From a bacterium (lineage in GTDB: Bacteria; JAJRZV01): a stretch of DNA of 23,333 nt. Positions 10,317 through 23,333 of this stretch are shown one piece after another. The stretch covers positions 1-23,333 of the forward strand of contig JAJRZV010000032.1 in assembly GCA_024275095.1 (NCBI GenBank), read 5' to 3'. Under the pieces are notes generated by a model. The model was given only the letters and a program-made list of their open reading frames with translations, was not told the DNA's origin and ran no database searches. The translations under genes and the position numbers were made by a program. Within the stretch, counting starts at the first letter, position 1, and each line of letters begins with the position of its first letter.

Positions 10317-10631
10317 TCATTCCCATTTAAACCTTGTTTCTGCTAACCGATACATTTGCCTCCAAACAAGCCGGTTGAACAATACCACAACCGCGGCCAT
10401 TGTAAATGTAGAAAGAAGTACCCCTGCTACATCCCCCTTGAGAGTGGCTTCAGTAATCATTGCCCCCAGTCCCTGAACCTTCAGCGTTGTGTTTCTGAAT
10501 ACAAAATATTCAGCCACAATGGTGGCATTCCAGGCTCCTCCCGCGGCCGTAATAAGTCCTGTGGTAAGATCCTTAAAGACAAAGGGAATGGTTATTTTTC
10601 CCCATCGATGGAGGCCTGATATTTTGTACAT
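10317..10631 (-). pseudogene. C-terminal fragment of NitT/TauT-type ABC permease, after in-frame stop
   Basis: This 104-residue reading frame is the end of the permease that starts at 12008. It is in the same frame and is separated from the upstream part only by the TAA at 10650-10652 and five sense codons. It supplies the rest of the second EAA loop (KMYKISGLHRWGKITIPFV), a membrane span with AAGGAWNATIVAEYF, and the last helix. Alone it would have no complete transport domain. The ATG at 10631 has only a weak A-rich upstream stretch and no proper ribosome site, so independent translation seems unlikely. It may be a dead fragment, a readthrough product or the result of a base-call error. Confidence 0.75.
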
Positions 10632-10649
10632 TTTTACAAATTCTTTTAA

Positions 10650-12008
10650 TTATGTGGGGATTGTAGAAGCCCCTGCAAGCACATTGAATAAAATATACCA
10701 CTGGCTGGAAAGAACAAGAAGTACGAGAGCATTGAACTCATGGGGCAGGTGCAGACGATGAGAGAACATAATAATGATAGGGAAAAAGGCTGTTGCGGGG
10801 ATGGATGCGAGGATTTGTATAACCGGTTGTATTCGGCGTGAGAGGCGCTTGCGCATTCCAGCGTATATTCCAAGTGGCAGGGCCAGAGCCAGGGAGATGA
10901 ACAGTGCTCCCAGCACTCTTGCCAGGCTTGAGAGTGCTGCTCCAGGCAACTGTAAAACGAGAGAAATATTGACCCCTCTCAGCAGTTCAAAGGAATAGTA
11001 GAGCACTGCAAACAACATCCCCGCCAGAGAGATGATGAATATCCAGGGGATGGAACCGCTCTCTCGAGGCATGCTTTTAAAACGTGTACTTTGTTCTATA
11101 ATCCACTGGCTCAGCCACCCAGCTGCATCGCGTGCAAGTGAAAAGAGTCTCGAGTGTTGAACAGCGTCCAGAATGAACGATTCACTTTTTTCTTCTTCGC
11201 CGTGCGTGAGGTCAGGTTTGAATTTAGAAACCCATGCAAAAACGGGTCGCCACACGATCGCGTCCGTTAATACAATAACGATAAGAATGAAGAGCACACC
11301 ACATGCAACTTCTACCATTTTACCCTGTTGGGATGCAGTATAAATGTAGGCTCCTATGCCCGGCATGATGTAACTTCGATCGCCGATGACAAGCATCTCG
11401 CAGGCCATGAGGAAGAACCAGCCTCCTGCAACAGATAGCATGGCGTTCCAGGCGAGTGAGGGGACGGCAAAAGGAAGTTCTATTTTGAGAAATTTCATGA
11501 AAGCATTGAGTTTAAATGCGTCGGATGCCTCGCAAAGATATTCTGGTACGCTTTTAATGGAAGAATAAAAAGCGAAGATAAGGTTCCATACTTGGCCTGT
11601 AACAATCAACACTATGGACGAAAGTTCAAGGGCCAGGCGTGAACCTCCAAAAAAGGATGTGAAGGATACCACAACCGCCGGCATGAAGCTGAGTACAGGA
11701 ATGGATTGGAGCACGTCCAGTAAGGGTACAAGAACCCGTTCCATGATCCTGGAGTGGGCTGCTGCATACCCGTATGTAAGCGCTATCCCCAGACTGATGA
11801 AAAGGGCGATAAATATTCGTGATATAGAATAAAGCCCGTATAGAGGAATGTATTTGAAGTCCAGTGAAATAAAAGGTTCGTGCCGGGCTTCTCCCCATCC
11901 TCCTGAAGCACTGAACAGTAGGGCCACGAGAGAAACAATCAGAAATATAACAGCGGCATCTACAGTGATACCGGTTAAAATTTTTGCTGATTGGCGTTTG
12001 CCAGGCAT
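10650..12008 (-). pseudogene. two-domain NitT/TauT-type ABC transporter permease, interrupted by TAA
   Basis: A 452-residue frame carrying one complete and one truncated BPD-type permease domain. Domain 1 (about residues 45-260) has an EAA loop, EASDAFKLNAFMKFLKIELP. Domain 2 starts near residue 350 (LARVLGALFISLALALPLGI) and runs to ASTIPT, where the frame meets TAA at 10650-10652. The downstream frame continues in phase with LKEF and then the rest of the loop, so relatives would have Glu, Gln or Lys at the stop. The intact gene (10317-12008) would encode about 563 residues, normal for fused nitrate/sulfonate/taurine-type permeases. No cognate ATPase or binding protein is adjacent. The ATG at 12008 lacks a clear ribosome site. 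One base change would restore the gene. Confidence 0.82.
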
Positions 12009-12082: not shown

Positions 12083-12763
12083 TCAGGAAATTACGTCACT
12101 ACTTCTGGACTTTGCTAATGCTTCCTTCCACTCGTAAAAGTCAATTAACTGCTGCAGCTTTTTGGGCCGCAATATGAAGATCATCCTCTCTTTCACCTGA
12201 ATGTACCCGAGAGTATGGAGTCTGTACAGTATAGATTTGATAAGTGGTGCATCTGCTGCCACACGTGACTCCAGTTCATCCAGGTCAAGATGAACCTTGA
12301 CACCAGGAGCCTCTCCGCCTGCTTCCCGTGCAAGCTGTAAAATTACATTGATGATCTGGCTTTCACGGTCTCCCAGCAAAAGATTTTCCAGTATTTGGTC
12401 GGTACGCCATAACCGATGAGCCATTTTTCGAAGAATTTCTATCGCCACGTGGGGGTAACTGCGAATCACGTTTTCAAATTGATCCTGGCTGATTTCAATT
12501 AAAATAGATTCCGACCTTGTTACAGCTGTTGCACTCCTGGGTTTCCCGGTAAGCATGGCCATTTCGCCAAAAAATTCTCCCTTTGTGAGAATGGCGATAT
12601 TCTTTTCTTTTCGTCCGGAGCGTTTTTTTATTTCTATCTCACCTTCATGAATGATGAACATGGTGTTACCTTTTTCTCCTTCTTTGAACACGAGAGTTTG
12701 TGGAGGGTAAATTTTACCGTGCCGTTCAATAAGCTCTTCGATATTCCTTTTACGAACACTCAT
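12083..12763 (-). CDS. CRP/FNR-like cyclic-nucleotide-binding regulator
   Basis: A 226-residue protein. Residues about 15-130 form a cyclic-nucleotide-binding beta-barrel with a near-canonical phosphate-binding cassette, GEFFGEMAMLTGKPRSATA, so it may bind cAMP or a related nucleotide. A long helix follows (VIRSYPHVAIEILRKMAHRL). The C-terminal part (VHLDLDELESRVAADAPLIK, then LYRLHTLGYIQVKERMIFIL) has the size and wing pattern of a winged helix. It lacks the usual SRETVSR recognition helix, so DNA binding is likely but not certain. It lies 42 bases after mosB, behind its own promoter, and may be transcribed both alone and by readthrough from the Mo/W operon. Whether it controls those genes is inference. 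Confidence 0.86.
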   Translation of the reverse strand: MSVRKRNIEELIERHGKIYPPQTLVFKEGEKGNTMFIIHEGEIEIKKRSGRKEKNIAILTKGEFFGEMAMLTGKPRSATAVTRSESILIEISQDQFENVIRSYPHVAIEILRKMAHRLWRTDQILENLLLGDRESQIINVILQLAREAGGEAPGVKVHLDLDELESRVAADAPLIKSILYRLHTLGYIQVKERMIFILRPKKLQQLIDFYEWKEALAKSRSSDVIS

Positions 12764-12805: not shown

Positions 12806-13606
12806 TTATGTATATATCAGTGTGCCTACATTTTTGTTTTCAAGGGCCAGCGTAAGATTCCCCCTCACCAATCCGTTTACGATTCGAATGCTTTTAATAT
12901 GAATTGCATTTTTCATTAACTCCAGGACCTTTCTTTCCACCACAAGGTCTGGCAGGTTCATTTTTACAAGTTCATCCACACTGATTCGAGGTATAAATGT
13001 AGCTGCAGGATTTTTTTTGGGGTCATCGGTATAAAGTCCATCTTCGTCTTTTACAAATATGACATTTTTTGCCCCCAGCACTTCACCTATAAGGAATGTG
13101 CCCACATCAGTGCGACACTCTGGAATTTGCCCTTTTGTAGGAGGTTCCTCCCAGTATTCATACGGTGGCATTCCGGAGATTATGGGGGTGCAGCCGGTGT
13201 TAAGATACAGGCCTATAATGTCAAATGTCTCTTTGGGAATGTAAACGCCGCCGTGGGGTGCTAAAAGTAACTGCAACATGCGGGCGTTTTGCCGTGAAAC
13301 CGAAGTTCCCAACTTTGCGAGTACACCGGGTGGCATTCCGAGTTCTACTGCCAGGGCATAGGCATGTCTTGAACGAGTGCCTCCGCCTACTGTAATGATA
13401 AGCCTCCTTTTTTTCATAAGCCGGGCCAGCTCTTCCACCAGTGGATAAACCGCGGCACGTCCCCTGTCCATAATGGACTGTCCACCGATTTTCACCACTG
13501 TTACATCCGGGAATATCTTTACAGTATTTTTACGATGCAGAAACTGAAGCAGTGCATCGCTTTTTCGCGCGTTGGTGTGAATGCTTTTTTTTCTATTTTC
13601 AGCCAT
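12806..13606 (-). CDS. mosB: molybdenum/tungsten storage protein beta-type subunit (amino-acid kinase fold)
   Basis: A 266-residue amino-acid-kinase-fold protein. It follows the Azotobacter molybdenum storage protein beta subunit closely (from memory of that sequence): VVKIGGQSIMDRGRAAVYPL at the nucleotide-binding start, GGGTRSRHAYALAVELGMP, ISGMPPYEYW, CRTDVGTFLIGEVLG, and IFVKDEDGLYTDDPKKNPAA followed by FIPRISVDEL. MoSto is an alpha3-beta3 cage that packs polyoxomolybdate or polyoxotungstate clusters in an ATP-dependent way. It is related to UMP kinase, but the DRGRAAVYPL and MPPY-x-W signatures are storage-protein features and a second, alpha-like subunit precedes it. The ATG overlaps the mosA stop by 8 bases, consistent with balanced subunit production. 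Length matches the family (about 270). Confidence 0.88.
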   Translation of the reverse strand: MAENRKKSIHTNARKSDALLQFLHRKNTVKIFPDVTVVKIGGQSIMDRGRAAVYPLVEELARLMKKRRLIITVGGGTRSRHAYALAVELGMPPGVLAKLGTSVSRQNARMLQLLLAPHGGVYIPKETFDIIGLYLNTGCTPIISGMPPYEYWEEPPTKGQIPECRTDVGTFLIGEVLGAKNVIFVKDEDGLYTDDPKKNPAATFIPRISVDELVKMNLPDLVVERKVLELMKNAIHIKSIRIVNGLVRGNLTLALENKNVGTLIYT

Positions 13607-14453
13607 GGGCGGTGATCACTGTTCCCGCATTTTTCCCCTGAAGCACACGCTCAAGCATTTGAGGCTTAAGTCCGTTGATAATGTACACTTTTTTACAGTT
13701 TCTTGCTTTGAGCAGAACCTGAAGCATCTGGCGTTCAACAGGAAGTTCATCGTCGCTCCAGGAAAGCATTTCTTTTGCTGTGATTTTTTTGACAGGTTTT
13801 TGGGGCGCCCCCGAAACGTGATCTGGCCTGTATACGCCGTCAATGTCTTTGATCAGAATGCAACGCTTCATTCCGAACGTTTCAGCAATAGTAAGTGCAC
13901 CGGTATCAGACCCATGCAAAGGTTCCTTTTGTGAGGGATATTCCCAGTAATGATAAGGCGGCATTGCTACTATTACGGGTATCGCCTTGGATGCCAGAAA
14001 GAAGGGGAGTTTTTCAAATTCGTCTTTGGTTACTCTTATACCGCCGTACGGAGCGAGTAAGCATTGGATGAGCAGGGCATTTTGTTCATGGGCGGCTTCT
14101 GCAATGGCTGCAAGTGCACCTGTAGGGAGACCCAGATCCATTCCAACTGCGTAAGTATGACGCTCACGGATGCCCCCGCCTGTTGCCACAATTATGCGGT
14201 GCCTTGTTGCAAGCCGTCCGATGGTTTTGATCAGCGGCAATATTGCATTTTTCCCCCGGTCTATAACGCTGCCCCCCCCAATTTTCAGCAAGTTTGCATC
14301 AGGTAAAATGCGTCTTTCACGGGGTTGGTGAGTCTTTTGCTGAACGGTTTTACTCACCAGAGATTCCTTCATGAGTGTACTGGCAATATGGAACCGGGAC
14401 GGTGTTTTTTCTATTTCGATGGTGCCTGGTGATTGTTTTTTCAAAGAGCACAC
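13599..14453 (-). CDS. mosA: molybdenum/tungsten storage protein alpha-type subunit (amino-acid kinase fold)
   Basis: A 284-residue paralogue of the next protein, matching the alpha subunit of the Azotobacter Mo/W storage protein: LLKIGGGSVIDRGKNAILPL, GGGIRERHTYAVGMDLGLPT followed by GALAAIAEAAHEQNALL, AMPPYHYWEYP, SDTGALTIAETFG and IKDIDGVYRPD. A His follows MPPY here, where the beta-like protein has Glu; subunit-specific residues near this loop line the metal-oxide sites in MoSto, so the difference supports a true alpha/beta pair. The GTG start at 14453, 9 bases after the wtpC stop, keeps an N-terminal extension that aligns with MosA. The ATG at 14372 is the alternative. No ribosome site is obvious, so it is probably coupled to wtpC. 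Confidence 0.87.
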   Translation of the reverse strand: MCSLKKQSPGTIEIEKTPSRFHIASTLMKESLVSKTVQQKTHQPRERRILPDANLLKIGGGSVIDRGKNAILPLIKTIGRLATRHRIIVATGGGIRERHTYAVGMDLGLPTGALAAIAEAAHEQNALLIQCLLAPYGGIRVTKDEFEKLPFFLASKAIPVIVAMPPYHYWEYPSQKEPLHGSDTGALTIAETFGMKRCILIKDIDGVYRPDHVSGAPQKPVKKITAKEMLSWSDDELPVERQMLQVLLKARNCKKVYIINGLKPQMLERVLQGKNAGTVITAHG

Positions 14454-14462
14454 GGGGAGATT

Positions 14463-15578
14463 TTACGAAATCGTCGAATAAGGAGCTACTTTTATATCAG
14501 TTTTAACGTTATCACCAATGTACTCGAAAACACCCAGAGTATTTCCGTCTTTTTGAGGCACCACATGTACAAATCGAGGGTCTATGCTGATTTCGACACG
14601 TTGTCCAGTGTTTACCGTTTTATTCCCCATCCACGACTCCTTTGATACAAGTGCCGTGTGAGCAAGCCGATACACAATTCTTGTATATCCGGGACATTCT
14701 GCTACCTCTTCAACCACAGCTTCTGTGCCTTTTCCGGTGATGCGGTATATACCTTCGGGGCGGATGAATACGATAGCCGGACCTTCGGGTATATCTGTAT
14801 TGACGGGGATGTTAATATCTCCTGAACAGAACACACCTGTTTCACCAGAGCGCTTTACATAACCAGAGATGATGTTTGAGTATCCTACCAGTCGTGCCAC
14901 TTCCCACGTGGCTGGTTTTTGGAGAATATCTCCGGGAGAGCCCTCCTGGACGATCTGGCCGTTTATCAATACACCAATCCTGTCGGAGAGAACCGCTGCT
15001 TCCTCGAAGTCATGTGTTACAAATATAGTGGTAACATCAAGCTGTTTCTGGATGCGTCTGAGTTCTCCTCTCAGCTCCTCTCTGGCGGTACGATCCAAAG
15101 CATTGAACGGCTCGTCCAGCAGAAGAAGCACCGGGTCCGTCACCAGGGCTCGAGCGAGGGCAATGCGCTGGCTCTCTCCACCGCTGAGGCCGTGGACGCT
15201 TCTGTAGAGCAGGTGTGAAATCCCGGTGAGTTCAGCGATTTTTTTTATTTTCTGGCGCACAAGTGACTCGGGGAGCTTTTTTACCCTCAACCCAAAGGCA
15301 ATGTTGTCGAATACGGTGAGGTGAGGGAACAGCAGATTTTTTTGAAACACCATTCCAACCCGCCGGCGTTCAGGTGGGAGATTTGACGAGTCCGCACCAG
15401 CGATAATGACAGTTCCCTGTTTTTCCCTGCGCAGACCGCTGATGAGTTCGAGGAGTACGCTTTTACCTGCACCCGAGGGTCCCATTATGGTGTAAAATTC
15501 GCCTTTTTTCAGCTCGAGACTTAACGGTCCAAGTTGAAAAGAATCTACCCGGTATACGAGTTTTTCAATGCGGAACAT
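14463..15578 (-). CDS. wtpC: tungstate/molybdate ABC transporter ATPase
   Basis: A 371-residue ATPase of the molybdate/tungstate/sulfate group. It has a Walker A motif MGPSGAGKSVLLE, Q-loop VFQKNLLFPHLTVFDNIAFG, signature LSGGESQRIALARAL, Walker B LLLLDEPFNALD and switch His in FVTHDFEEA. Residues from about 240 form a C-terminal TOBE-like regulatory domain, in which Mo/W importers may bind the oxyanion and trans-inhibit transport. GGAGGG lies upstream of ATG, inside the end of wtpB (14-base overlap). It is the third gene of the importer operon and is directly followed by mosA. Being between a WtpA-type binding protein and MoSto subunits supports molybdate/tungstate rather than sulfate or iron. 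Confidence 0.88.
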   Translation of the reverse strand: MFRIEKLVYRVDSFQLGPLSLELKKGEFYTIMGPSGAGKSVLLELISGLRREKQGTVIIAGADSSNLPPERRRVGMVFQKNLLFPHLTVFDNIAFGLRVKKLPESLVRQKIKKIAELTGISHLLYRSVHGLSGGESQRIALARALVTDPVLLLLDEPFNALDRTAREELRGELRRIQKQLDVTTIFVTHDFEEAAVLSDRIGVLINGQIVQEGSPGDILQKPATWEVARLVGYSNIISGYVKRSGETGVFCSGDINIPVNTDIPEGPAIVFIRPEGIYRITGKGTEAVVEEVAECPGYTRIVYRLAHTALVSKESWMGNKTVNTGQRVEISIDPRFVHVVPQKDGNTLGVFEYIGDNVKTDIKVAPYSTIS

Positions 15579-16398
15579 TCTTTTTTTCCCTCCATACTAT
15601 TATTCTCATTCCGATAAACACCACCAGCGTAAGCAGTATCAGCACCGTGGCCACTGGTCGAGCATATGCAAGGCCATACGATTCAAATCTCTCGTACACA
15701 AGCACAGGTGCTGTCATGGGATGATATGCGAGCACCACCACTGCACCAAACTCGCTGATGCCTCTTGCCCACATCATGAGCATGCCTGATGCAATATGCC
15801 TTTTGACCAGCGGTAGCGAGACTTTCCAGAAGACCTGCCATGGTGATGCTCCCAATATTCGGGCTGCCTTTTCCAGATTTGGATCGAGCAAAGAAAAGCC
15901 TTCTCTTACCTGGTTTATGAGAAAAGGAGCACTGACGAACAGCATGGCAATTACGATACCTGGAACGTCTCCTACAAAGTGAATGCCCAGGCTGCTGAAG
16001 AAACGCCCGGCGAAAAAGCGCTTGCCAAACACAAAAAGCAGAGCGACTCCAGCAGCAGTGTGGGGGATGATCATGGGTAGGTCTACAAATGCACTGATAA
16101 CGCTTTTGCCTGGAAAGTGACGCCGTGCGAGCAGATATGCCAGTGGCACGCCGGTTAATGTTGCTATAAGGGTCGCGTAAAGAGCCGCGCGGAATGTGAG
16201 CCCGATAGACTGCATCACTTCTTTTTCGCGTGCGGTTTCCAACAGTACCTGTGGAGTGTTTGCTGCTACAAGCTTGGCCAGTGGAATTACCAGAAATATG
16301 ACAATAAGTGCACCAACTCCGGCAAAAATGCCCGTAAGTAATTTTTCTCGTGATAATAAAGAGACGCCGACAACCCCGTTTTTGCTGGTCAGGCTCAC
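15565..16398 (-). CDS. wtpB: tungstate/molybdate ABC transporter permease
   Basis: A 277-residue inner-membrane permease of the ModB/WtpB type. It shows about six hydrophobic spans, the family segment VDLPMIIPHTAAGVALLFVF, and the EAA loop EKAARILGASPWQVFWKVSL, which docks on the ATPase. ARGISEFGAVVVLAYHPMTA is a further oxyanion-permease signature. It starts at GTG, whose last bases form the wtpA stop (GTGA, 4-base overlap). There is no separate ribosome site, so translation is presumably coupled to wtpA. Length is normal. Tungstate and molybdate are not distinguishable from the permease alone. Confidence 0.9.
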   Translation of the reverse strand: MSLTSKNGVVGVSLLSREKLLTGIFAGVGALIVIFLVIPLAKLVAANTPQVLLETAREKEVMQSIGLTFRAALYATLIATLTGVPLAYLLARRHFPGKSVISAFVDLPMIIPHTAAGVALLFVFGKRFFAGRFFSSLGIHFVGDVPGIVIAMLFVSAPFLINQVREGFSLLDPNLEKAARILGASPWQVFWKVSLPLVKRHIASGMLMMWARGISEFGAVVVLAYHPMTAPVLVYERFESYGLAYARPVATVLILLTLVVFIGMRIIVWREKKNVPH

Positions 16399-17354
16399 TG
16401 GGATATCACATGAATTCGTAGTGCTTCTGGCATGAAGTCACGGTCTGGAGATACCGGAGGCACGAGAGGTTCTTGAAAACTGTCTTTTAAAATTTCCTGC
16501 CCCTTACTACCGATAAGGAGTTTGATGAACTCCACAGCGGTCTGATAATGGGGGGCACCTTTTACGATGGTAATTCCGTAAACAATAGGTTTGCCTCGGA
16601 CTTTCAGGGTTTGTTTGCCGTCTGTAAGTTCCAGTACAGCTTCACTGTAAATGTTTTTTAGCGAAGGGTTGCCCAGGTCTATTTCTTCCGGGAGGGTTAC
16701 ATACTGGAAACCGTGTTGTCTGGCCAGTGAAAGGTAGGTAAAGTGGTAATCCAGGTCACCTGATTGTGCGAGCGGGAGCAGATCTGTTTCTTTTGGCCTC
16801 AAGTTGCGCAGTGACATTCCGTCCAGAAGTTTCCGGTAGAGCCCTTTGAGGCCGTAGTACCTTTCTGCCAGCTTCCATACGAGCAACGTTCTGTATCCAC
16901 AGGGATCGAGAAAAGGGTCTGACCGCCCGTATTCAACACTTTTTTTCAGTAGAATTTTGTACCAGTTGTTCCCGTTGATTTCGCTCGCATATCGGGCTCC
17001 TTTGCTAATGGCGATAACCATGCGGTTTCGTGCAAAGTAAAGATTCCACACTGCGTATTCGGGCTTTAATATTTCGTCTATGACGGTATAGTCAGACACG
17101 GCTACGATATCAGCCTGTTTCGCCAGTTCTGCTACTTTTCTGGCGGCCAGACGGCTGCCTGATGCCTCCCGTAGAACTTCGCAGCCCGGGTGCTTCTCCT
17201 CGAAAACCTTTTCCAGCCGTGAGAATGGTACTGTCAGACTACCGGCATGAAATATAATAAGTTTGCATTTGTCTCCTGCGTAAGCGAAAAAATTTGCGAG
17301 CAGGAAAATCAGAAAGACAGATAGATTGTGCTTCATGAGGCAGAACTCTATCAT
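16395..17354 (-). CDS. wtpA: tungstate/molybdate-binding periplasmic protein
   Basis: A substrate-binding protein of the WtpA/ModA family, first gene of the importer operon. A signal peptide (FLIFLLANFFAYAG) precedes IIFHAGSLTVPFSRLEKVFE, the WtpA N-terminal signature. REASGSRLAARKVAEL, DIVAVSDYTVID and GRSDPFLDPCGYRTLLVWKL follow; the last is characteristic of WtpA, where Asp and Glu residues give octahedral oxyanion binding. I use the ATG at 17354, preceded by GAGAAG; the ATG at 17336 would give a cleaner signal peptide, and a TTG at 17387 is unlikely because it overlaps the divergent promoter. WtpA proteins favour tungstate with molybdate also bound; this specificity is family knowledge, not seen here. 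Confidence 0.9.
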   Translation of the reverse strand: MIEFCLMKHNLSVFLIFLLANFFAYAGDKCKLIIFHAGSLTVPFSRLEKVFEEKHPGCEVLREASGSRLAARKVAELAKQADIVAVSDYTVIDEILKPEYAVWNLYFARNRMVIAISKGARYASEINGNNWYKILLKKSVEYGRSDPFLDPCGYRTLLVWKLAERYYGLKGLYRKLLDGMSLRNLRPKETDLLPLAQSGDLDYHFTYLSLARQHGFQYVTLPEEIDLGNPSLKNIYSEAVLELTDGKQTLKVRGKPIVYGITIVKGAPHYQTAVEFIKLLIGSKGQEILKDSFQEPLVPPVSPDRDFMPEALRIHVISQ

Positions 17355-17380
17355 AGGGTTCTTCTCAGGGGAAGGTAAAA

Positions 17381-17409
17381 TTGACAAATAATGAGCATAT
17401 GCTTATAAT
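17381..17409 (+). promoter_or_regulatory. consensus sigma-70 promoter with embedded palindromic operator candidate
   Basis: TTGACA (17381-17386) and TATAAT (17404-17409) are both perfect and are spaced by 17 bases, pointing toward the DUF134 gene. A 22-base imperfect palindrome, 17388-17409, fills the spacer and -10 box. Nine of eleven base pairs match, centred on the perfect 10-mer AGCATATGCT at 17394-17403. A protein bound there would block this promoter and sits about 35 bases upstream of the wtpA start on the other strand. The divergent regulator is the obvious candidate binder, an inference. Confidence 0.7.
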
Positions 17410-17430
17410 GAGTACCAGGGAGGAGAAAAA

Positions 17431-17961
17431 ATGCCCAGACCGAGAGTCCCACGCTGTGTTGAGGAGGAGCCTCCGGCCAAGGCTTTCAAACCGGCTGGTA
17501 TTCCTGCTATTGCCCTTGAGCGCGTAATTCTTGAGCTGGACGAATTTGAGGCATTGAGGCTTGCTGATTTGGAGGGCCTTTATCAGGAAGACGCGGCTCA
17601 ACTGATGGGAGTATCCCGCCAGACGTTTGGTCGTATCCTGGAATCGGCACGACATAAGGTGGCCGAGGCTCTTGTTGAAGGCAAAATGTTAATTATGAAA
17701 GGAGGGTCAGCCATGGGTGAGGTCAAAAGAGTATTTCAGTGCAGTGATTGCGGTCATGAGTGGGAAGTTCCGTTTGGTACGCCACGGCCGGGTCGATGTC
17801 CTGAATGTGGCGGTGTAAACCTTCATCGTGCAGGTGCACCGGGCTGGTGTCGTGGTCACGGCGGCAGGTTCCGTCGGCGCTGGCGCTGGCGGGGTGGCGG
17901 ACACGGATGGCATCACGGTGGAGGAGGGTGGCGCCACGGACACGGTCATGGCGGTGCGTAG
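17431..17961 (+). CDS. UPF0251/DUF134 DNA-binding protein with zinc ribbon and Gly/His-rich tail
   Basis: A 176-residue protein in three parts. Residues 1-90 are the DUF134 (UPF0251) family: MPRPRVPRCVEEEPPAKAFK, then LELDEFEALRLADLEGLYQE and a sigma-region-4-like helix-turn-helix, DAAQLMGVSRQTFGRILESA. Residues about 95-135 form a zinc ribbon with CSDC and CPEC pairs. Residues about 140-176 are a tail of Gly, His, Arg and Trp with HHGGGGW and HGHGHGG, likely to bind metal. The ribosome site GGGAGGAG precedes ATG. It is transcribed away from wtpA, from a promoter holding a palindrome. DUF134 genes often accompany Mo/Fe-cofactor-related NifX/NifB-type proteins in anaerobes (family knowledge); a metal-responsive regulator of the Mo/W operon is my inference. 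Confidence 0.85.
   Translation: MPRPRVPRCVEEEPPAKAFKPAGIPAIALERVILELDEFEALRLADLEGLYQEDAAQLMGVSRQTFGRILESARHKVAEALVEGKMLIMKGGSAMGEVKRVFQCSDCGHEWEVPFGTPRPGRCPECGGVNLHRAGAPGWCRGHGGRFRRRWRWRGGGHGWHHGGGGWRHGHGHGGA
17698..17715 (+). promoter_or_regulatory. internal ribosome site and ATG inside the DUF134 gene
   Basis: AAAGGAGGG (17698-17706) is followed after 6 bases by an in-frame ATG at 17713. This is as strong as any start signal in the window. It falls exactly at the junction between the helix-turn-helix domain and the zinc-ribbon/His-rich part, so initiation here would yield an 82-residue metal-binding protein without the DNA-binding domain. Confidence 0.5.
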
Positions 17962-21691: not shown

Positions 21692-22426
21692 ATGACATTA
21701 TCAGCAGATGATCTCAAACGTTACAACCGGCAGATGATGATGGCAGGGTGGGGCGAGCAAATTCAAGAAAAACTTAAAAATTCAAAAGTATTTATCGCAG
21801 GAGCAGGTGGACTTGGTAGCCCTGTGTCCATCTATCTGGCTGTGGCAGGTATTGGTTCCATCACAATTGTGGATGCAGATAAAATTGAGCTCTCGAACCT
21901 CAACAGGCAGATTCTTCATCCCAATGAGCGTATAGGAGTTGAAAAAGCACGCTCTGCGGAACAGACCCTGAAAGCGATCAATCCTGATGTGGAGATAAAG
22001 GGAATTGTCGCGTACATTGACGAAAATAGTGTTGCTGACCTTATCGGTGATGCTGACCTCATAATGGATTGTCTGGACAATATGGATACGCGGCACATTA
22101 TAAATAAATACGCAGTTAAAGCTGGGATACCTCTGGTACACGGAGCCATCTGGGGTTTGACAGGGCAGGTGACTTTTATCAAGCCGGGAGAGACCCCGTG
22201 CCTCAAATGTCTTTTCCCGGAATCTCCACCGAGAGAAACATTTCCGGTTGTGGGAGCAACACCTGGTGTGATTGGCTGTATTCAGGCCATGGAAGCCATT
22301 AAGTATCTCACGGGTATAGGGGAAAACCTCTGCGGCACATTGCTCGTTATGGATGGAGAAACCATGCGTTTCGATCATCTGAAGATAAGACGAGTGCCTG
22401 ACTGCCCACACTGTGGAAATTCATAG
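21692..22426 (+). CDS. MoeB/ThiF/HesA-family adenylyltransferase
   Basis: A 244-residue E1-like enzyme that adenylates the C-terminus of a small sulfur-carrier protein (MoaD in molybdopterin or ThiS in thiamine synthesis). The signatures are complete: RYNRQMMMAGWGEQIQEKL, the nucleotide-binding AGAGGLGSPVSIYLAVAGIG, VDADKIELSNLNRQILHP with the conserved Arg, DCLDNMDTR and GAIWGLTGQVTFIKPGETPC. The zinc is held by CLKC and CPHC at the end. It lacks the C-terminal rhodanese domain of longer MoeBR proteins. AGGAGG stands 5 bases before ATG. No carrier-protein gene is adjacent, so MoeB and ThiF cannot be separated. The Mo/W genes 4 kb away make a molybdopterin role attractive, but this is inference. 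Confidence 0.88.
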   Translation: MTLSADDLKRYNRQMMMAGWGEQIQEKLKNSKVFIAGAGGLGSPVSIYLAVAGIGSITIVDADKIELSNLNRQILHPNERIGVEKARSAEQTLKAINPDVEIKGIVAYIDENSVADLIGDADLIMDCLDNMDTRHIINKYAVKAGIPLVHGAIWGLTGQVTFIKPGETPCLKCLFPESPPRETFPVVGATPGVIGCIQAMEAIKYLTGIGENLCGTLLVMDGETMRFDHLKIRRVPDCPHCGNS

Positions 22427-22992: not shown

Positions 22993-23333
22993 CTATGGTG
23001 TTAGACCGCCCACGAATAATGTACAGCCTTTTCTCACGCAAGAGCGCCTTAATAAACTTGCCCTCGCATAGCCCCTATCTCCTATAAAAACAGGAATAAC
23101 CCCCTCAGGTAAAGAAATCTCTATATCCAGAAGAAATATGTGCTCAAGCTGATTCTGACTGTCCAGTCTGCTCTCCACCCACGGGTATTCAAAGGTATAT
23201 ACGGAGATAGGTAAAATTCGCCCCCTGTAGGGAACACCAGCAAATAAAACCAGAACTGTTCCAATTTTGGTCTGGTCAAATATTACAGGCCAGAACCTTC
23301 CGCCTTTCAATCTCACAACTAAATCCACAAGCC
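22993..23333 (-). mobile_element. partial, frameshifted DDE (IS4-like) transposase
   Basis: The N-terminal part lies beyond the window edge. The visible stretch has FWPVIFDQTKIG, in which the Asp fits the first DDE residue, then LFAGVPYRGRILPISVYTF, and FIGDRGYARASLL, whose Asp fits the second DDE residue. This D...D-R-G-[FY]-x-R layout is typical of IS4-group transposases. Immediately after GYAR the protein-like sequence switches frame, near 23060-23066, so the visible frame ends at 22993 with an unrelated tail. The third catalytic residue (Glu) is not seen. The copy is probably inactive. Confidence 0.7.

Follow-up and report, generated by a model that had tools for sequence, protein, structure and literature searches.

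The molybdenum storage protein (MoSto) of Azotobacter vinelandii, composed of MosA and MosB, binds octamolybdate through His156 and Glu129, uses three symmetry-related histidines to hold a W3 cluster, and also makes polyoxotungstates (PMC4504029; titles of PDB entries 2ogx and 7zse). MoSto has until now been studied in a nitrogen fixer only and treated as an Azotobacter peculiarity, and a 2019 paper stated that protein databases contained no known homologue of it (PMC6448029). A second store, Tub of Eubacterium limosum, holds tungstate for tungstoenzymes as eight single oxyanions in a small TOBE-domain hexamer (PMC11980592). Of the transporters for these oxyanions, WtpA has been reported to be strongly tungstate-selective (PMC5517513), while Wtp is described elsewhere as a carrier of both tungsten and molybdenum (PMC11980592). 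Here we describe a bacterial locus in which the Wtp and MoSto families are joined. Within a 23,333-nucleotide stretch of DNA (contig JAJRZV010000032.1, assembly GCA_024275095.1; hereafter the window), a minus-strand run of five open reading frames (ORFs), 17354-12806, encodes wtpA, wtpB, wtpC and two MoSto-family genes, mosA-like and mosB-like. We propose that this operon probably imports and stores tungstate, and possibly molybdate too, and feeds an enzyme of the aldehyde:ferredoxin oxidoreductase (AOR) family.

The two genes that end the run, mosA-like (13599..14453, minus strand, 284 aa, GTG start) and mosB-like (12806..13606, minus strand, 266 aa), were assigned by sequence and by predicted structure. 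The MosB-like protein has MoSto beta as its top PDB match (E 1e-75, ~53% identity to the Azotobacter subunit), and the MosA-like protein has MoSto alpha (E 4.9e-50, 35% identity), with beta nearly as close (2e-46). AlphaFold2 models were built on alignments of locus-derived relatives (pLDDT 82.5 for MosA-like and 85.4 for MosB-like), searched with Foldseek and then re-aligned for Z-scores. MoSto entries came first for both models (E about 1e-23 and 1e-27, respectively), and re-alignment against MoSto gave Z of about 30-31 for the MosA-like model and 33-34 for the MosB-like model, in contrast to values of at most ~24 and ~25 against UMP kinases, aspartate kinases and MfnE. By nearest homology and fold both proteins thus belong to the MoSto family over other amino-acid kinases. 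They also display the MoSto trait of two side-by-side paralogous subunit genes, although single-gene members exist and the trait therefore defines only part of the family. Lysine K39 of the window MosB, the equivalent of beta-Lys42, is invariant in the family alignment, as are the nucleotide-fold motifs; a Kb42S variant of MoSto is present among PDB entries. The preliminary description of this DNA had read the pair as storage proteins and named UMP kinase as the family to compare them with; in that comparison MoSto came first by sequence and by fold, with UMP kinase far behind. UMP kinase identity was rejected on model scores, PDB matches and fold Z-scores.

The conservation of the published cluster ligands is partial. 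At alpha positions 129, 140 and 156 the window alpha protein carries T, F and H, so that alpha-His156 is kept, with the placement of the gap near 129 being unsure. Position 140 corresponds to the symmetry-related histidine of the Azotobacter W3 cluster, which we take to be alpha-His140. Ten of 12 proteins of the alpha-prime lineage, to which the window alpha belongs, retain His156; the residues at 129 and 140 are rarely conserved. Absence of the cluster-binding residues, which had been named at the outset as grounds for abandoning the storage assignment, is therefore found in part: one of the three covalent Azotobacter ligands remains, and most relatives also lack the other two. Since these two residues differ in the window alpha and vary across the family, the cluster chemistry may differ from that of Azotobacter, or the ligands may come from elsewhere in the protein.

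Trees of 142 and 74 sequences resolved the family into three groups. A deep single-gene group comprises Bacillota, syntrophic and other 'delta' metagenome-assembled genomes (MAGs), and Eggerthellaceae. The second group is paired, with alpha-prime before beta-prime in 9/9 pairs examined and overlaps often of 4-11 bases (loci L026, L034, L043, L062 and L070; 8 in the window). The window alpha falls in this group (support 99/96), as does the window beta with weaker support (81/89). Both Azotobacter subunits fall together in the third group, a clade (99/97) that excludes the window proteins; here the order is beta then alpha in each of the 43 pairs examined. Neither window protein clusters with the Azotobacter subunit of the same name. 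The labels 'alpha-like' and 'beta-like' given earlier are hence apt by best match, but the proteins do not correspond one to one with the Azotobacter subunits. A joint clade of all alphas was only marginally rejected (AU p 0.045), so that the two paired lineages may have arisen by independent duplications in place of a single ancestral alpha/beta duplication. Two other amino-acid kinases of the host genome branch outside the MoSto group. In summary, the window pair resembles Azotobacter MoSto in sequence, predicted fold, tandem subunits, nucleotide-binding motifs and alpha-His156, and differs from it in its position outside the clade of both Azotobacter subunits, its alpha-beta rather than beta-alpha order, the residues at 129 and 140, its junction to a Wtp operon and a host with no detected nitrogenase. 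Its likeness to Tub is confined to a proposed role in tungstate storage for tungstoenzymes, the fold being unrelated.

The three genes ahead of the pair encode a WtpABC-like transporter in the standard A-B-C order. WtpA (16395..17354, minus strand, 319 aa), a periplasmic tungstate/molybdate-binding protein, scores 303 bits against TIGR03730, above the curated cut-off of 242.75, and its top PDB matches are archaeal WtpA/ModA (2onk_E, 1.6e-79); an inner ATG at 17336 fits a signal peptide better than the annotated start. The ABC permease gene wtpB (15565..16398, minus strand; BPD_transp_1) and the ABC ATPase gene wtpC (14463..15578, minus strand; ABC_tran) have the WtpB model NF040839 (294 bits, cut-off 340) and the WtpC model NF040840 (302 bits, cut-off 440) as best matches, and so are Wtp-like B and C components beside a true WtpA. 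With that qualification the importer was correctly described as WtpA-type. Unlike known WtpABC transporters, which it otherwise resembles, this one has B and C below the curated cut-offs and an operon that continues into two storage-protein genes. The junctions are tight: wtpA and wtpB overlap by 4 bases (16395-16398), wtpB and wtpC by 14 (15565-15578), and mosA and mosB by 8 (13599-13606), with a 9-base gap (14454-14462) between wtpC and mosA. ORF coordinates and junction sequences thus bear out the five-gene, single-strand layout first described.

We then consider which enzymes this metal could serve. The host genome is a 2.45 Mb draft of 136 contigs, 97% complete; the 59 compared genomes share only the domain with it, making it an isolated lineage in this collection. 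No nitrogenase (PF00148), molybdenum-bis-pyranopterin guanine dinucleotide (Mo-bisPGD) oxidoreductase (PF00384), xanthine-oxidase type (PF02738) or sulfite-oxidase type (PF00174) protein was detected in it, and control genomes matched each of these searches. It does encode two AFOR_N proteins, homologues of the tungsten-type AOR. The main AOR gene lies directly after moeA and has the Pyrococcus tungsten AOR as its best match (1e-63); the second (L009) is short and divergent, and adjoins heterodisulfide-reductase-like and ferredoxin-like genes. On another contig moaA, a moaC/moaB fusion and a MobA-like gene occur together. WtpA is the sole SBP_bac_11 protein over cut-off in the genome, so that no ModA was seen, in a search that did not extend to TupA or MOSC-domain proteins. 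Given that none of the four enzyme families was detected and that moaA, moaC/B, moeA and two AOR homologues are present, tungstate storage for AOR is the best reading, which supports the earlier suggestion that a single operon couples import to storage on behalf of tungsten or molybdenum oxidoreductases, not nitrogenase.

These data allow us to propose a pathway. WtpA would catch the oxyanion on the outer side of the membrane, from which WtpBC would move it inward, driven by ATP. The two MoSto-family proteins, presumably co-transcribed with the importer, would build an ATP-dependent hetero-oligomeric cage in which the metal is held as oxide clusters. This cage would release metal to the pterin-cofactor pathway of MoaA, MoaC/B and MoeA, from which it would reach the AOR-family enzyme whose gene adjoins moeA.

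To place the locus among its relatives, ~85,000 species genomes were scanned once with two peptide patterns, giving 311 MoSto relatives, of which the best 80 were kept and examined. These loci span many bacterial phyla and include one MAG labelled archaeal. A mod-, wtp- or tup-type substrate-binding protein occurs within the fetched flanks of 31 of the 80, and nine representatives typed by best model comprised four TupA (none above cut-off), three WtpA (one above) and two ModA (both above). For several hundred relatives, some labelled uridine kinase, linked mod, wtp and tup transporters suggest the metal handled by each. The nearest relative, L025, comes from a Nitrospirae MAG. Its wtpA, wtpB and wtpC genes share a strand with its mos pair and lie upstream of it, set apart from it by a gene for a CbiQ-like membrane protein; among the loci examined, the uninterrupted wtpABC-mosAB order was found in the window only. 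In 50 genomes of relatives, Mo-bisPGD enzymes occurred in 49, AOR in 15 and a nifD-like match in four (two above cut-off). The preliminary description saw no nitrogenase gene in view, and none was detected in the host genome; this is not an oddity, nitrogenase-free MoSto being the rule. A CbiQ/ECF-T-like membrane protein also precedes alpha-prime mos genes at L026, L029 and L086 as it does at L025, and so in several lineages (Pfam match in two of the four). Azospirillum plasmid relatives carry the labels uridine kinase, UMP kinase or MoSto alpha, the kinase labels being likely misannotations.

Several points weigh against the proposed role in supplying AOR with tungstate. Function is deduced from sequence and predicted fold, and the genome is a draft of 136 contigs. 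Neither alpha-Glu129 nor alpha-His140 of Azotobacter is conserved in the window alpha protein. The MobA-like gene (79 bits, cut-off 152) means that a guanylated Mo/W cofactor might be made, which hints at an undetected oxidoreductase; AOR is not known to use a guanylated cofactor. The main AOR (L008) reads ...HKP-TAG-YENLG..., with an in-frame TAG at the family Glu position by our own reading. With the second AOR homologue short and divergent, the enzyme that uses the metal could be non-functional, unless this TAG reflects an error in the sequence. Single in-frame stops at expected acidic residues were also seen in proB (L004) and, as a TAA (10650-10652), in a double ABC permease of NtrB/TauC type in the window (10317-12008, minus strand). 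Stop-codon recoding, raised by three conserved genes with a stop at a Glu/Asp position, was rejected: TAA, TAG and TGA all end window genes normally, which makes recoding unlikely and leaves base errors or real nonsense changes.

Poor family-wide conservation of the published cluster ligands, set beside invariant nucleotide-fold motifs and MosB K39, would also suit a pair that acts as an ATP-dependent oxyanion buffer or delivery factor, passing tungstate or molybdate to MoeA one ion at a time, or as a metal sensor for regulation, rather than as a bulk store. We regard this as rather unlikely: the comparison covered the Azotobacter ligands only and other cavity residues may build clusters, and the two-subunit arrangement and closeness to a proven storage cage favour storage. 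That molybdate is instead stored for a Mo enzyme missing from the draft, or of an unrecognised family, is in keeping with the MobA-like gene, with the description of Wtp as transporting both metals (PMC11980592) and with the Mo-bisPGD oxidoreductases of 49 of the 50 other MoSto genomes. Against this, a 97%-complete genome yielded no member of the four Mo-enzyme families searched, and we consider the idea unlikely. It is highly improbable that the Mos proteins are simply UMP kinases, or amino-acid kinases of another kind, placed beside a transporter by chance. They share a fold superfamily with these enzymes, and the uridine kinase label occurs on Azospirillum relatives, but MoSto is the best sequence and fold match by a wide margin, the UMP kinase (PyrH) models scored 63 and 49 bits (cut-off 158), the host's two other amino-acid kinases branch elsewhere, and MoSto loci are repeatedly linked to Mo/W transporters.

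A related gene arrangement occurs in Sporomusa ovata. At its locus L030, genes for a permease and an ATPase of tungstate/molybdate type directly follow a gene of the MoSto family, and an AOR gene lies ~3.7 kb off; the locus differs from the window in having a single MoSto gene on a deeper branch and in an organism that also has nifD. In this organism tungstate raises transcripts of several AOR genes, including aor4 on scaffold SOV_5c (PMC4973070), the scaffold on which L030 sits with its AOR and MoSto genes; judged from position, the AOR of L030 appears to be aor4. AOR was found in 12 of 13 genomes of the single-gene clade versus 3 of 37 of the rest (Fisher p 5e-8), an association confounded by shared ancestry and anaerobic life. 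In anaerobes, single-gene MoSto homologues at L030, L033, L083, L089 and L058 adjoin Tup-like tungstate-type transporter genes, and such homologues are possibly homomeric MoSto. We tentatively raise the possibility, which at present we would not favour, that the MoSto family is widespread, its deeper and in part single-gene branches working for the tungsten enzymes of anaerobes (AOR, formate dehydrogenase), that the Azotobacter nitrogenase store is a later specialised branch, and that the host cage is a dedicated tungsten store.

The wtpABC and MoSto families are each known. A literature search, with subscription papers mostly outside its reach, gave no report of a non-Azotobacter MoSto tied to tungsten enzymes; within the literature searched, the union of wtpABC with mosAB in one unit, the presence of MoSto in a genome with AOR homologues as its only detected Mo/W enzymes, and the wide distribution of the family, mostly in genomes without nitrogenase, are new. 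Such a genome, with a WtpA-type importer co-encoded with MoSto, makes a clean case for asking whether the cage stores tungsten.

Between wtpA and a divergent gene lies an intergenic region (17355..17430) with promoter-like sites on both strands: a plus-strand sigma-70 candidate (17381-17409) matching the consensus TTGACA-17-TATAAT at 12/12 positions, and a weak minus-strand candidate (17379-17350), the total number of promoter-like sites being at chance level. The divergent gene (17431..17961, plus strand) encodes a DUF134 helix-turn-helix protein with a zinc ribbon and a His/Gly-rich tail (PF02001, 1.3e-27), a possible regulator. Directly downstream of mosB is a CRP/FNR-type regulator gene (12083..12763, minus strand; cNMP_binding, 7e-24), which a promoter-like site ahead of it (12799-12771) accompanies and which is probably transcribed separately from mosB. 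An Rfam scan of the window returned no Moco/Tuco riboswitch or other RNA, and defence-system models gave no match. Outside the operon, a MoeB/ThiF-family adenylyltransferase (21692..22426, plus strand; ThiF, 4e-77, with MoeB models top but under cut-off) possibly serves a pterin-cofactor step, and a transposase-like fragment (22993-23328, minus strand) lies at the window end.

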